From positions 1-64,000 of the forward strand of contig JAYZXF010000003.1 of NCBI GenBank assembly GCA_036141575.1: a stretch of DNA of 64,000 bases. Direction: 5' to 3'. Of the stretch, positions 21,795-27,252 are shown piece by piece. Origin of the DNA: Pseudomonadota bacterium. Lineage in GTDB: Bacteria > Pseudomonadota > Alphaproteobacteria > UBA2136 > JAPKEQ01. Made by a program: the position numbers and the translations under genes. The notes below the pieces were generated by a model. It had not been told where the DNA came from, searched no databases, and saw only the letters and a program-made list of their open reading frames with translations. Within the stretch, counting starts at the first letter, position 1; every line of letters starts with the position of its first letter.

Positions 21795-22058
21795 ATGGCT
21801 GACGCTTTAAAAGAAAACAAAATGTCATCTGCAGAACGCTTAGAAAGCGCACTGCAAGCCCTTGAATCTCATGTCCGTTCAGGCGGAGGGATGGTTGGTA
21901 AAAACGCTGTTGAATCTGCCGAAATCCACGACCTGAACAAGTCTGAGCTTGAAGACTTGCGTCGTGAAAACGCGATTCTAAAGGATAAGCATAACACGCT
22001 ACGCCTTAAGCTTGATAAAGCCATCACAACAATTGAAACAGTACTGGAGAAACAATAA
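21795..22058 (+). CDS. Small coiled-coil protein (DUF4164-like) upstream of zapA
   Basis: 87 residues, charged and helical. Residues 45-85 form a clear coiled coil (LNKSELEDLRRENAILKDKH, then TLRLKLDKAITTIETVLEKQ). It has no membrane segment. A short coiled-coil gene directly before zapA is usual in alphaproteobacteria and is thought to work with cell division, possibly with a ZapB-like role. The stop and the zapA start share a base (TAATG), so both are translated together. Family assignment is by size, composition and location. Confidence 0.75.
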   Translation: MADALKENKMSSAERLESALQALESHVRSGGGMVGKNAVESAEIHDLNKSELEDLRRENAILKDKHNTLRLKLDKAITTIETVLEKQ

Positions 22059-22357
22059 TGAGCGGATTTAAATCAGTTAACGTAGCAGCTCGCCAGTACA
22101 GAATGTCTGTTGAACCAGGCCAAGAAGCACGCCTTGATAAAGTGGCTGATATCTTTAACAGCTACATTGATCAAATTAAAGAAATGGCTGGCAGCGGCAT
22201 TGACCGTGACCAAATGATTGTACTTGCAGGCCTGCTTATGGCAGACGAACACCTTTCACTGCGCCAACAAAAAGACGGCGAAGGCGAAACACTTGAGCGT
22301 TACCACTCACGCCTTGCAGAACGTATTGAAGGCATCCTGTCTCAAGTCAGCGCATAA
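22058..22357 (+). CDS. zapA: Cell division protein ZapA
   Basis: 99 residues. ZapA binds and bundles FtsZ filaments at the division ring. The N-terminal VNVAARQYRMSVEPGQEARL matches the family pattern (I.G..Y...C...E...L...A), followed by the dimerising helices DKVADIFNSYIDQIKEMAG and MIVLAGLLMADEHLSLRQ. In many bacteria 6S RNA lies between zapA and the 5-formyltetrahydrofolate cyclo-ligase gene; here that gap holds only a terminator and an opposite-strand gene. Confidence 0.88.
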   Translation: MSGFKSVNVAARQYRMSVEPGQEARLDKVADIFNSYIDQIKEMAGSGIDRDQMIVLAGLLMADEHLSLRQQKDGEGETLERYHSRLAERIEGILSQVSA

Positions 22358-22372
22358 TACTTATTCCACAGA

Positions 22373-22404
22373 AAAAGCCCCGCGATATGCGGGGCTTTTC
22401 TTTT
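22373..22404. terminator. Bidirectional terminator between zapA and the convergent gene
   Basis: AAAAGCCCCGC (22373-22383), loop GATAT, GCGGGGCTTTT (22389-22399), with T-runs on both strands. Confidence 0.92.
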
Positions 22405-22408
22405 TCGA

Positions 22409-23131
22409 TTAATCGAACAGTTGCGGGTCATTCAGACGTGTAAACACATCCGATGAAATGCAACCAATTGCGGTATCAACATATTCAGACTGCTCAGACT
22501 GGCGCTTCTTGTCCCAATAATCATAGGGACGCGTCGGCATCATGAAGTCACCTTGCTCAGGCTGATTCAGGATAACCACCCGCCGATCACCATCGCGAGT
22601 GCGGAAGCGCACCATCAACTTCAAGCAGCTCTTATAACCAGAGAATGCACCACGCAGCTCACGTTCTGCAAGATCACCAGAAGCAAGCATACTGGGCTTC
22701 ATATTGCGGAAGCGGTTGTCTTCATCAATGTCATAAAAGACATCTTTGATCAGCTCGACCCCAAGCACAGTAGAGCCTGCCGGCAAAATCATCGTACTTC
22801 CACGGTTAAAATGATGAATCTCGTCACCATAGTAAGCGGGGATATACAGCGCTTCTTGCAGGCCCATGTTCTCAGCACTGATGCCAAACCAGCCCTTCGC
22901 CACAAGCGTCTGCTCACCATTGCGCTGTCTGAATTTAACTTCATAGTCATAAACAAAGCTCAAATCAGGCAAAACGGTGGGTACCGCTGGAGCATGATCC
23001 CAAGGGACACAAGTCCGGAAAACCTTTTCACCCTCATCATCCCGATACGACTCAAACGGGTCACGTTCAGACAGGAAGGTTTCAAGGGAGTAAAAGCGCG
23101 CTGAGGACTTCTGTAAATCTTCAAATTTCAT
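22409..23131 (-). CDS. Hypothetical cytoplasmic protein, single-gene unit
   Basis: 240 residues, no signal peptide or membrane segment, rich in aromatic and acidic residues (PYDYWDKKRQSEQSEY, YIPAYYGDEIHHFNRGSTM). No family recognised. A short stretch ILPAGSTVLGVEL looks like a beta-hairpin core. The start at 23131 has a strong ribosome binding site GGAGGA at 23139-23144, and the SD is followed at once by its own complement (AGGA-A-TCCT). Codon choice (more CTG, CGC, GCC) differs from the flanking housekeeping genes. The stop codon lies inside the perfect palindrome TCGATTAATCGA (22405-22416). It interrupts the usual zapA-fau spacing, suggesting a later insertion. Confidence 0.72.
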   Translation of the reverse strand: MKFEDLQKSSARFYSLETFLSERDPFESYRDDEGEKVFRTCVPWDHAPAVPTVLPDLSFVYDYEVKFRQRNGEQTLVAKGWFGISAENMGLQEALYIPAYYGDEIHHFNRGSTMILPAGSTVLGVELIKDVFYDIDEDNRFRNMKPSMLASGDLAERELRGAFSGYKSCLKLMVRFRTRDGDRRVVILNQPEQGDFMMPTRPYDYWDKKRQSEQSEYVDTAIGCISSDVFTRLNDPQLFD

Positions 23132-23182
23132 ATTAGGATTCCTCCAAGACAAAAAGAGAAAAAAGAGATAGAATTCAAAGTC

Positions 23183-23211
23183 TGTATACCAGTAGTAAAA
23201 ATAAAAAGCAA
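23183..23211 (-). promoter_or_regulatory. Promoter of the 22409-23131 gene
   Basis: On the minus strand: TTGCTT (23211-23206), 17-base spacer, TATACA (23188-23183). Confidence 0.55.
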
Positions 23212-23216
23212 ACCAG

Positions 23217-23792
23217 ATGACTGCGATCAGTAAAACATTCCTCCGTAAACAGCTAGAAAGTAAAAGGGATAGACTCTCCCCATCAGATAGAGCTTACGCT
23301 GCCGACGATATGATTAAACGTGTCCTAGAGGTTCTTACCCCTCTTAAGGGAGAGACCATAGGCATGTATTTCGCTATACGGACAGAACCTGACTTAAGCC
23401 CTATGGTAGCTGAAATATCTCTACAAGATAAAACCTTTGCCTTGCCCCGTGTTATGGGGAGTGAGAAACCTCTTAAGTTTAATACATGGACCCTTGATGA
23501 AATGATGGATGAAGACATCTTTGGAACCCCTTGTGCCACAGGTGAAGAAACCTTCCCTGATATCTTTATTGTTCCTCTCCTAGGTTTTGATGAAAGAGGG
23601 TACCGTATGGGCTATGGCGGAGGGTATTATGACCGTACCCTTGCACACTATAGAGAAGAGGGGAAAGAGTTTATAACCATTGGGGTCTGCTATGATGCCT
23701 TAAAGCTTGACCTTTTCCCGGCTGAACCTCATGATGTGCCCCTAGATTATATCGTCACAGAAAAACAAACGATTGCATGTACACATGACTAA
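23217..23792 (+). CDS. 5-formyltetrahydrofolate cyclo-ligase
   Basis: 191 residues; ATP-dependent conversion of 5-formyl-THF to 5,10-methenyl-THF, which returns a storage/inhibitory folate to one-carbon metabolism. Seen: FLRKQLESKRDRLS at the N-terminus (substrate-binding K/R), IGMYFAIRTEPDLSPM, ALPRVMG, and the ATP-binding signature GYRMGYGGGYYDRTL near residue 137. The last 8 bases overlap the start of the YmdB-like gene. The start at 23217 lies in a short divergent region shared with the 22409-23131 gene; no strong ribosome binding site is seen. Confidence 0.92.
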   Translation: MTAISKTFLRKQLESKRDRLSPSDRAYAADDMIKRVLEVLTPLKGETIGMYFAIRTEPDLSPMVAEISLQDKTFALPRVMGSEKPLKFNTWTLDEMMDEDIFGTPCATGEETFPDIFIVPLLGFDERGYRMGYGGGYYDRTLAHYREEGKEFITIGVCYDALKLDLFPAEPHDVPLDYIVTEKQTIACTHD

Positions 23793-24712: not shown

Positions 24713-25465
24713 ATGGCTGGACATAGTAAATGGGCAAACATCAAACACCAAAAAGCCCGTGTAGATGCCAAGCGCGGTAAAATTTTTACACGTCTTATCC
24801 GTGACGTGATGACAGCGGCACGCAGTGGCGGTGGCGATGTTAACTCTAACCCGTCACTACGCCTTGCTGTTGAGACAGCACGTAAGAACAACATGACCAA
24901 AGATACAATTGAGCGCGCTATTAAGCGTGGTACAGGTGAGATTGCTGGTGATGATTACGTAGAGAAGGTGTACGAGGGCTACGGCCCAGCAGGTGTGGCT
25001 ATTATTGTAAAGACACTAACTGATAACGGCACACGTACATTTACAAACGTACGCACAGCTTTCAACAAGAACAACGGTAACCTCGGTACAGATGGTAGCG
25101 TTGCTTGGATGTTTGAAGAGCGCGGCATGCTTCAGTACCCAGTGTCTATCGGTACAGAGGACGACGTTATGGAAGCAGCTATTGAAGCAGGTGCTGCTGA
25201 CTTTGAACCATCTGATGAAGTTTACACAGTTTACACAGAAGTACCTGACTTCGGTGAAGTGCGTAACGCCCTTATTGAGAAGTACGGTGACCCAGCAGAA
25301 GCTGACCTGACGTTTGTACCAAAGCAAACGCAACCAGTTGCAGATGCTGAAACAGCTAGGAAAGTGATTAAGCTTGTTGAAGTTCTAGAAGAAGACGATG
25401 ACGTACAAAACGTAATCGTAAACATGGAACTTGACGACGCCGTAGCAGAAAGTTTGGCGGGCTAA
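24713..25465 (+). CDS. yebC: YebC/PmpR family protein
   Basis: 250 residues, full length. N-terminus MAGHSKWANIKHQKARVDAK is diagnostic; GPAGVAIIVKTLTDNGTRT and NGNLGTDGSVAWMFEERG follow, and the acidic C-terminus LVEVLEEDDDVQNV is typical. The family acts as transcription regulators in some bacteria, and work on YebC paralogues points to relief of ribosome stalling at proline stretches. Often found just upstream of ruvC; here a structured RNA, a deaminase-like gene and two membrane-protein genes lie between yebC and ruvC. Own ribosome binding site GAAGAGAGAAAG and own terminator. Confidence 0.96.
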   Translation: MAGHSKWANIKHQKARVDAKRGKIFTRLIRDVMTAARSGGGDVNSNPSLRLAVETARKNNMTKDTIERAIKRGTGEIAGDDYVEKVYEGYGPAGVAIIVKTLTDNGTRTFTNVRTAFNKNNGNLGTDGSVAWMFEERGMLQYPVSIGTEDDVMEAAIEAGAADFEPSDEVYTVYTEVPDFGEVRNALIEKYGDPAEADLTFVPKQTQPVADAETARKVIKLVEVLEEDDDVQNVIVNMELDDAVAESLAG

Positions 25466-25480
25466 GTCATTACACACTTA

Positions 25481-25507
25481 AAAAAGCCTCCGTCTGGAGG
25501 CTTTTTT
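25481..25507 (+). terminator. Terminator of yebC
   Basis: AAAAAGCCTCC (25481-25491), loop GTCT, GGAGGCTTTTTT (25496-25507). Confidence 0.93.
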
Positions 25508-25526
25508 ACATTTTTTATAGCAGTAC

Positions 25527-25555
25527 TTGAAACTCAAAAAATCATTCCCATACTT
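25527..25555 (+). promoter_or_regulatory. Promoter of the structured RNA
   Basis: TTGAAA (25527-25532), 17-base spacer, ATACTT (25550-25555). Predicted transcription start near 25562. It stands between the yebC terminator and a dense set of hairpins, so it belongs to the RNA and not to yebC. Confidence 0.5.
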
Positions 25556-25561
25556 AAAACT

Positions 25562-25807
25562 CCGGCAGATGTATGCCGTTTTGAAAGCGCCAGGCTCTAC
25601 CCCTAAAAAGGATTCATTGCAGCCAGTCGCTATATGCGAGAGGCGGAAGACTACACTTTCGACCTCGGGGGCGATGTGCCCCCATCGAGTCCCCGGACCG
25701 TGAAATAACGGCGCCGTGGATAGTTCCTCCGACCTTGAGGAGTAAGTCAGATATCACATTTGGCATAAGGTCTACCTTGCTCCCCCTTTTTGGGGGAGCA
25801 TTTTTTT
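25562..25807 (+). ncRNA. Structured non-coding RNA or long 5' leader, family not recognised
   Basis: About 245 bases with their own promoter and a strong terminator, no ribosome binding site plus ORF on this strand, and at least five clean hairpins: CGGCA-GATGTA-TGCCG near 25564; TCGC-TATAT-GCGA; GGGGGC-GATGT-GCCCCC inside a longer GAC-CTC...GAG-TC stem; CCGT-GAAATA-ACGG; TCCTC-CGACCTT-GAGGA. TATGCC near the 5' end can also pair with GGCATA near 25762, closing the whole RNA, which would compete with the first hairpin. The GC content is higher than the surrounding intergenic DNA. I looked for RNase P, tmRNA and SRP RNA signatures and saw none. 6S RNA is possible, because the usual 6S position next to zapA is empty here, but no 6S signature can be confirmed by eye. 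If termination is conditional it would be a riboswitch-like leader of the deaminase gene. Confidence 0.6.
25778..25807 (+). terminator. Terminator of the structured RNA
   Basis: TGCTCCCCC (25778-25786), loop TTTTT, GGGGGAGCA (25792-25800), then seven T. Confidence 0.95.
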
Positions 25808-25871
25808 GTTGCCATACCCCATTCACTTGCATACAATCCATCATCCCAACAGCCAAATAAGGGATAAACAT

Positions 25872-26324
25872 ATGCTGTACAACGTGCAAAAGCTTACAGA
25901 CGCCGATCATGATCTGATTGGGCAAGCCAAAGATCTTATGTTTAAAAGGTGTAAAACCCGTTCACATCAACTCACAAGTATCGTGCGCATGAAGTCTGGT
26001 AATGTTTATGCAGGTGTTCATGTTGGCCTCTATGTTCGCAGACTCTCTACTTGCGCAGAAGCCGTAGCCCTTGGCACAGCCCTCACAGAAGGCGAAGAAG
26101 GGATCGATACAATCGTGACTGTCCGCATGAAAAGCCCAGACATTGCTTATGAAGATATCCGCGTCGTTTCTCCATGTGGCATCTGTAGGGAGATGATCAG
26201 CGACTACGACCGCGACGCCACCGTCATTATGGAAAAAGACGGCGAGTTGGTTAAATTCCCAATCATGGACCTGATTCCTGAAAAATATGAGAAAAGGGTG
26301 GGAGATCACGCACATGCTTGTTAG
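25872..26324 (+). CDS. Cytidine deaminase-like zinc hydrolase
   Basis: 150 residues. The zinc/catalytic motifs of the cytidine deaminase fold are present: TCAEAVALG (C-A-E, cysteine ligand and catalytic glutamate) and SPCGICREMI (two cysteine ligands), giving the three-cysteine ligand set of homotetrameric CDD and blasticidin-S deaminase types. Substrate is uncertain: free cytidine/deoxycytidine or a related base-modified compound. The ATG at 25872 follows AAGGGA at 25859-25864; upstream in-frame ATG codons would reach into the RNA terminator. The last 11 bases overlap the next gene. It lies 65 bases behind the structured RNA terminator. Confidence 0.8.
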   Translation: MLYNVQKLTDADHDLIGQAKDLMFKRCKTRSHQLTSIVRMKSGNVYAGVHVGLYVRRLSTCAEAVALGTALTEGEEGIDTIVTVRMKSPDIAYEDIRVVSPCGICREMISDYDRDATVIMEKDGELVKFPIMDLIPEKYEKRVGDHAHAC

Positions 26325-26865
26325 GGCTGCATCATTCTCATTCGTATCTTTTTTAATCATCTGTTTTATTGTGTTTATTTTCAAAACAGCGCAAACATCA
26401 GGACACGAGTGGGCCAATCTTTGGACCAATGTTTTTGTTGGATGCTCTCTCGTTGCATTTGCAGGACTAACTTGGAGGGTATCTCATTATCAATCCAGAG
26501 AATCAAATAGAAAAGCTCTAAGGCAAAACTATATAAGGCTAATGACAGCCTGTGAAAAAGAGCGACAAGCAATAGCATCTTTTTACCCCGACATAAGAAG
26601 AAGCCAACAAAATTCACCAACAGATGAATTTATTATGGAGTTTAATTTAGTTAAAAGAGAGGCTGAACTTCTACAAGAAAAAGATATTGTTACATATTTA
26701 GAGCCAATCATGGAAATCATTAGCGTCTCCCAAGATAAGCGCCGAAAATACACTGAGGATGAAAATAATTTATTATCATATAAGAAAGCTTTAAATACGC
26801 TTAATGAAGCAATAAAAGTATGCCATGCCCCTGTATATCAACACGCACTTAAAAAGTATAAATAA
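26314..26865 (+). CDS. Hypothetical membrane protein, AT-rich
   Basis: 183 residues. Two membrane segments near the N-terminus (ASFSFVSFLIICFIVFIFK and TNVFVGCSLVAFAGLTW), then about 120 cytoplasmic residues, mostly helical and charged (ACEKERQAIASFYPDIRRSQ, LVKREAELLQEKD). No family recognised; two N-terminal helices followed by a helical soluble part are also seen in small phage-defence or putative membrane-anchored accessory proteins, but no diagnostic motif supports that. The codon use is clearly more A/T-rich (AAA, TTA, ATA) than in neighbours, suggesting recent transfer. The start at 26314 has GGTGGGAGA about 10 bases upstream; an ATG at 26287 is possible. Confidence 0.6.
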   Translation: MLVRAASFSFVSFLIICFIVFIFKTAQTSGHEWANLWTNVFVGCSLVAFAGLTWRVSHYQSRESNRKALRQNYIRLMTACEKERQAIASFYPDIRRSQQNSPTDEFIMEFNLVKREAELLQEKDIVTYLEPIMEIISVSQDKRRKYTEDENNLLSYKKALNTLNEAIKVCHAPVYQHALKKYK

Positions 26866-26907
26866 TATTTCTTTGCTCTCAACCATGCATTCCTCCATAA
26901 TCACTCC

Positions 26908-27252
26908 ATGCTTAAAGATATTCTACTCCTTCTTGCAACGTTTTACCTACCTGCCGTAGTGATGTGGCGCGTGGCGTATTTCAGCAAGCATGCAAGGTTT
27001 ATTAAAATCAGCAGCTACAGCTTTTACCTCTATACGCTTTCTATTATTTTGTACTTTGTGCCGTTTCTGGCAGATTGCACCAGCAATATGATTGATGGGT
27101 TTAAGCATTGCAGCCACCTCAGCAATGAAACAGCCAACATTATTGGCCTCACAAGTTTTGCCCTTTGGGGTATCGTGATTATCATCTACGCGCTTGTTCT
27201 CATGTTTTACAGCACAAAACTCATTTACAAAAAGGTTTTTAAGCGCTCATGA
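26908..27252 (+). CDS. Small membrane protein upstream of ruvC
   Basis: 114 residues with three hydrophobic segments (ILLLLATFYLPAVVMW, YSFYLYTLSIILYFVPFLA, IIGLTSFALWGIVIIIYALVLMF). Two cysteines (DCTSN and HCSH) lie in the loop between the second and third segments and might form a disulphide. No family recognised. The stop overlaps the ruvC start as ATGA, so it is likely transcribed with and coupled to ruvC, although a functional link to recombination is not suggested by the sequence. Confidence 0.6.
   Translation: MLKDILLLLATFYLPAVVMWRVAYFSKHARFIKISSYSFYLYTLSIILYFVPFLADCTSNMIDGFKHCSHLSNETANIIGLTSFALWGIVIIIYALVLMFYSTKLIYKKVFKRS

Follow-up and report, generated by a model that had tools for sequence, protein, structure and literature searches.

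6S RNA is defined by a long rod with an open central bubble, and its usual place is beside zapA. Alphaproteobacteria also contain small RNAs (sRNAs) with anti-Shine-Dalgarno loops, which, according to the accessible parts of two reports, silence mRNAs at their ribosome-binding sites; in those of the NfeR1 type, CCUCCUCCC is repeated in the loops of three hairpins (PMC10746234, PMC3927594). Here we describe a structured RNA in a 64,000-nucleotide stretch of alphaproteobacterial DNA (the window), where it lies between yebC and a cytidine deaminase gene. Among the listed titles and abstracts on sRNAs of yebC/cytidine deaminase intergenic regions, no paper on this locus was found. We estimate a probability of roughly 0.7 that the RNA is a small non-coding RNA gene in its own right, specific to this lineage and transcribed separately, judging from sequence comparison and prediction. 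Very probably it is a candidate sRNA of an ordinary kind without a known family, real but not extraordinary. Its limits are well defined, and it extends the list of candidate sRNA genes to an alphaproteobacterial lineage in which the only named member is known as a metagenome-assembled genome (MAG).

Layout of the locus

The original prediction had placed the RNA at 25562-25807, with a promoter TTGAAA-17-ATACTT in front of it, a very strong terminator at its end and the deaminase gene 65 bases downstream. The end at 25807 was kept and the start was corrected to about 25559-25562; the deaminase gene is indeed adjacent, its ATG at 25872 lying 64 bases past the U-run (Table 1). The strong terminator was confirmed, both stem and U-run being seen, with a predicted stem probability of 0.99-1.00. 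For the promoter, TTGAAA at 25527-25532 was retained, whereas ATACTT matches TATAAT at only 1/6 positions and was given up; the -10 is better read as CATACT at 25549-25554, with a 16-base spacer and 4/6 matches. Because of this -10, we regard the RNA promoter as modest and not strong.

Scanning of 601 bases gave 2 promoter-like sites against 0.7 ± 0.9 in shuffled sequences; for terminators the count was 3, with one site listed twice, against 0.7 ± 0.7. Taken alone, these counts are mild evidence. The G+C content of the RNA centre reaches 59%, compared to 37-46% across most of the flanking sequence. The locus shows the features of a free-standing sRNA gene, namely a promoter (by consensus and conservation only), an intrinsic terminator and no conserved open reading frame (ORF). 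That the RNA is a well-delimited unit, apparently separate from its neighbours, is well supported by the comparison below. Transcription of the RNA would begin near 25560, driven by a promoter of its own, and end at its own terminator at 25807, and the deaminase gene behind it would start from a promoter of its own. Further downstream, between the deaminase gene and ruvC (26287-27252), there are two ORFs of 192 and 114 aa, the first of which overlaps the end of the deaminase frame; neither has a Pfam match.

Table 1. Features of the candidate sRNA locus (window coordinates).
Feature	Position	Strand	Basis or remark
yebC	24713-25465	+	upstream gene
yebC terminator, upstream boundary of the RNA unit	25479-25508	+	terminator scan, sequence
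RNA promoter-like site TTGAAA-16-CATACT	25527-25554	+	9/12 consensus matches
Candidate sRNA gene of about 247 nt, U-run included	25559-25807	+	start inferred from promoter
5' hairpin CGGCA-6-UGCCG	25563-25578	+	same stem in G001, different loop
Central hairpin-rich domain, up to 59% G+C	25585-25723	+	unrelated 40-45 nt stretch in G001
Core hairpin 1, UCCUC-7-GAGGA	25725-25741	+	starts with invariant UCCUCCG
Core hairpin 2, GUCAGAU-5-AUUUGGC	25746-25764	+	stem identical in G001
Invariant, partly unpaired AUAAGGUCUA, candidate pairing segment (role inferred)	25765-25774	+	
Intrinsic terminator of the RNA: stem 25778-25800, U-run 25801-25807	25778-25807	+	fold, terminator scan
Deaminase promoter-like site TTGCCA-17-TACAAT	25809-25837	+	hexamers and spacing identical in G001
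Cytidine deaminase gene	25872-26324	+	NF005314 match, 160 bits (cut-off 131)

Predicted fold and known RNA families

Fold prediction of 25556-25807 bore out the hairpins seen earlier in the sequence. The region folds at -95.6 kcal/mol, compared to -75.0 ± 4.9 for shuffled sequences (z -4.2; 0/200 as good). Much of this excess comes from the terminator, because z falls to -2.3 when it is removed (4/200 shuffles equally good); the central part alone gives z -2.4 (6/200 equally good). The version found in a congener (G001, below) reached z -3.4 and beat 200/200 shuffles. Both predicted folds are strings of local hairpins. A long-range closing pair, TATGCC/GGCATA, had also been considered and is not sustained: its probability is about 0.2 in the window and about 0.02 in G001, where it contains a mismatch, and both species retain the two local hairpins with which it would compete.

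Rfam gave no match in the region at gathering score, and hits at E<=10 were mostly to the two terminators. The absence of RNase P, SRP RNA and tmRNA signatures, already noted from the letters alone, was upheld (no match in the region to RF00010, RF00169, RF00023 or RF01849); RNase P, SRP RNA and a one-piece tmRNA are located elsewhere in the same genome.

The original prediction had named 6S RNA as one identity for the RNA. This was not supported: RF00013 has no match in the region or in the whole genome at E<=10, and the fold is not a rod, the long rod with an open central bubble being absent from the predicted folds of both the window RNA and its G001 version. In a survey of 61 genomes (E<=0.001, strict filters), RF00013 matched 0/18 members of the order, while 32 genomes carried a 6S match, all of them among the 43 outside the order. 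Because the model is empty in this genome and in the 18 order members, the order may have lost 6S RNA or may carry a strongly diverged form of it. Why none is recognisable in any of the order members is a further question, distinct from that of the sRNA, to which the locus draws attention. A single-copy, separately transcribed structured RNA would be available for the role; that it is a highly diverged 6S RNA, or a functional substitute binding RNA polymerase, is nevertheless very improbable, as the region has no RF00013 match, the fold is multi-hairpin, the central part is not conserved and searches of the remaining order members did not find the RNA. We consider it hardly credible, too, that this deep and little-known lineage of Alphaproteobacteria, in which 6S RNA is not recognisable, has a new RNA family with constant ends and a central module open to exchange that acquired a global function, for example the control of RNA polymerase.

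Two further observations concern these families. The window interval 22058-23792, between what we take from the ORF sequences to be zapA and the gene for 5-formyltetrahydrofolate cyclo-ligase, is filled by a 247-aa ORF on the minus strand (22409-23152) that has no Pfam or NCBIfam match. The usual tmRNA of Alphaproteobacteria is the alpha two-piece type; its model, RF01849, has no match in this genome at E<=1, and the one-piece match lies outside the window at G000:C1:151052-151408 (L042; RF00023, 158 bits).

Comparison with a congener

In BLAST searches of 61 genomes, the RNA unit was convincingly common to a single congener, G001, where the matching record is JAPKEQ010000043.1 (MAG ANT-120). 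The available part of the study that describes MAG ANT-120 assigns it to the Alphaproteobacteria and gives its origin as coastal waters of the western Antarctic Peninsula; its relative evolutionary divergence of 0.66 was the lowest in that study's set (PMC10232865). All comparisons below involve only two genomes of the genus, the window genome (G000) and G001.

The gene order in G001 is yebC, a VOC-like gene, RNA promoter, 5' hairpin, short centre, 3' core, terminator, second promoter and deaminase gene. Promoter position, 5' hairpin, 3' core and RNA terminator are kept and the RNA belongs to no Rfam family, in agreement with the earlier suggestion of a new small RNA. Conservation of the hairpins, whose absence from relatives had been named as refuting, is seen in G001 in the stems of the 5' hairpin and of the core. 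The centre differs: it is about 140 bases long in the window and 40-45 in G001, and the two sequences are unrelated. In the 3' core (25724-25778), 47/52 aligned bases are identical, with three additional gap columns. Four-fold sites are identical at 67/123 positions in yebC and 35/58 in the deaminase gene (102/181 pooled), and under the pooled rate the chance of the core identity is about 9e-8. With gaps counted, 0/24 paired columns of the core changed versus 8/31 unpaired ones, and 12/12 pairs of the two core hairpins are unchanged. The covariation analysis proposed earlier has two sequences to work with, so a covariation count is impossible, and invariant core pairs neither prove nor disprove the predicted stems.

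Taken together, these results show a conserved unit with fixed ends, conserved predicted hairpins in the 3' core and a centre that seems to change freely. The main interest of the RNA lies in this contrast: the 3' core hardly varies, whereas the length of the centre differs about threefold in the two species, which would allow asking what the core does alone. If the locus were a decayed gene, or intergenic DNA that drifts and has a promoter and hairpins by chance, this would account for the narrow distribution and for the unconserved centre and length; such a lack of function is highly unlikely, since the core is far more conserved than four-fold sites and the changes avoid stems. As for a protein product, a 44-codon ATG frame from 25569 within the RNA has no ATG in G001 when read by eye.

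Counting against an sRNA gene are the modest fold excess left without the terminator and the -10, a weak match in the window and weaker still in G001: the G001 promoter, TTGTAA-16-CATACA, has the same position and spacing and a poorer consensus match. The upstream neighbour in G001 (L002 1691-2113), which we presume from its protein sequence to be VOC/glyoxalase-like, overlaps the yebC stop and occupies the place of the window's yebC terminator, so that the sRNA terminator may also end its transcript. This gene ends 12 bases before the -35, with no terminator noted in between, as would suit an RNA that lacks its own promoter and is processed as a piece of the 3' region from read-through of the upstream gene. 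We find this improbable, because yebC in the window has its own terminator ahead of the RNA unit and the position of the RNA promoter is kept in both genomes.

A separate gene or a leader of the deaminase gene

The RNA adjoins the same deaminase gene in both genomes while the upstream neighbour differs. This constancy would be expected of a terminator-controlled 5' region (riboswitch-like or an attenuator) in which read-through switches the deaminase on, a possibility raised by the original prediction, and the UGCC of the 5' hairpin can alternatively pair with the GGCA of core hairpin 2 (about 0.2 in the window). A leader of this kind is unlikely, being disfavoured above all by the conserved second promoter behind the RNA terminator. 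The hexamers TTGCCA and TACAAT and their 17-base spacing are the same in both genomes and much of the spacer sequence is altered, which is the pattern expected if a working promoter lies behind a terminator; with this promoter placed just past the terminator, the deaminase appears to be separately transcribed. Moreover, the alternative UGCC/GGCA pair has a probability of only about 0.02 in G001, the terminator stem is predicted at 0.99-1.00 with no conserved antiterminator seen, and the centre is not conserved, unlike a ligand pocket. Given these pairing values and the unconserved centre, no conserved mutually exclusive fold or ligand pocket was found in the two versions. Finally, duplexes between the RNA and the region around the deaminase start were no better than those of shuffled sequences (77 and 83/200 as good), which also leaves this region unsupported as a target.

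Distribution

Beyond the window genome and G001, BLAST of the 61 genomes returned three short hits (E 0.001-0.007). Two of these were rejected as lying inside ORFs, and the third (L003) was judged from inspection of its sequence to be due to chance. A model of the 3' core (R1), run on 385 genomes of the class, recovered the window genome's own locus and nothing else convincing, since the three weak hits besides it (E 0.002-0.09) each lie within an ORF and were rejected; among the genomes listed from this sample (361 of the 385 are not), at least four are order members besides the window genome, and there is no match entry for G001. In other order members, R1 also had no match in the 19 loci taken from the surroundings of yebC or of the deaminase gene, and by eye nothing like the RNA unit follows yebC in the 14 loci inspected from the 16 such members. 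These 16, the order members besides the window genome and G001, thus yielded no homologue. Because BLAST, R1 and the scans of order loci were otherwise empty, the RNA is restricted to one genus in the collections searched.

Plasmid and phage collections gave no match. In IMG/VR, a 20-base probe had no hits and a 17-base probe had two: L064, which has neither core nor terminator around it and no R1 match, and L065, which has a weak R1 match (11.3 bits) and was dropped because it lies within an ORF. The centre of the RNA has no second copy in its own genome at E<=0.001, and insertion of a repeated element there was rejected on this ground.

Possible mode of action

We tentatively suggest, with less than even confidence, that the RNA acts by base-pairing in trans. 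Invariant 3' segments (UCCUCCG, the core hairpin 1 loop and AUAAGGUCUA) would pair with mRNAs; AUAAGGUCUA would serve as a pairing segment placed between core hairpin 2 and the terminator, UCCUCC could cover a Shine-Dalgarno sequence, and the central domain would serve to stabilise the RNA or as a spacer, and could be replaced. Because UCCUCCG is mostly predicted to be paired, as UCCUCC is in both species, the anti-Shine-Dalgarno role is possible and perhaps doubtful. An exact search with the complement of AUAAGGUCUA (one 10-base probe) found 4 sites in G000 versus 12 for the reversed control, and 6 versus 6 in G001. One site is common to both genomes and lies deep in a coding gene, and no conserved start-site target emerged.

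Relation to known systems

The RNA resembles attenuation leaders and riboswitches in having hairpins and a terminator right before a metabolic gene; it differs from them in that the deaminase gene has its own conserved promoter past the terminator and in lacking a conserved alternative fold. With 6S RNA (RF00013) it shares single copy, structure, similar length and an own promoter, but it has no match to the model, another fold and another neighbourhood. From alpha-r14/NfeR1 it is set apart by having a single UCCUCC, mostly in a stem, and no Rfam match, and three hairpins each with a CCUCCUCCC loop, the mark of that family in the accessible parts of its descriptions, are absent from its sequence. 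At the same time, like alpha-r14/NfeR1 and SmelA075/SmelA099, it is a candidate free-standing hairpin sRNA gene in Alphaproteobacteria, and its invariant UCCUCC could, as in these RNAs, cover a Shine-Dalgarno sequence.
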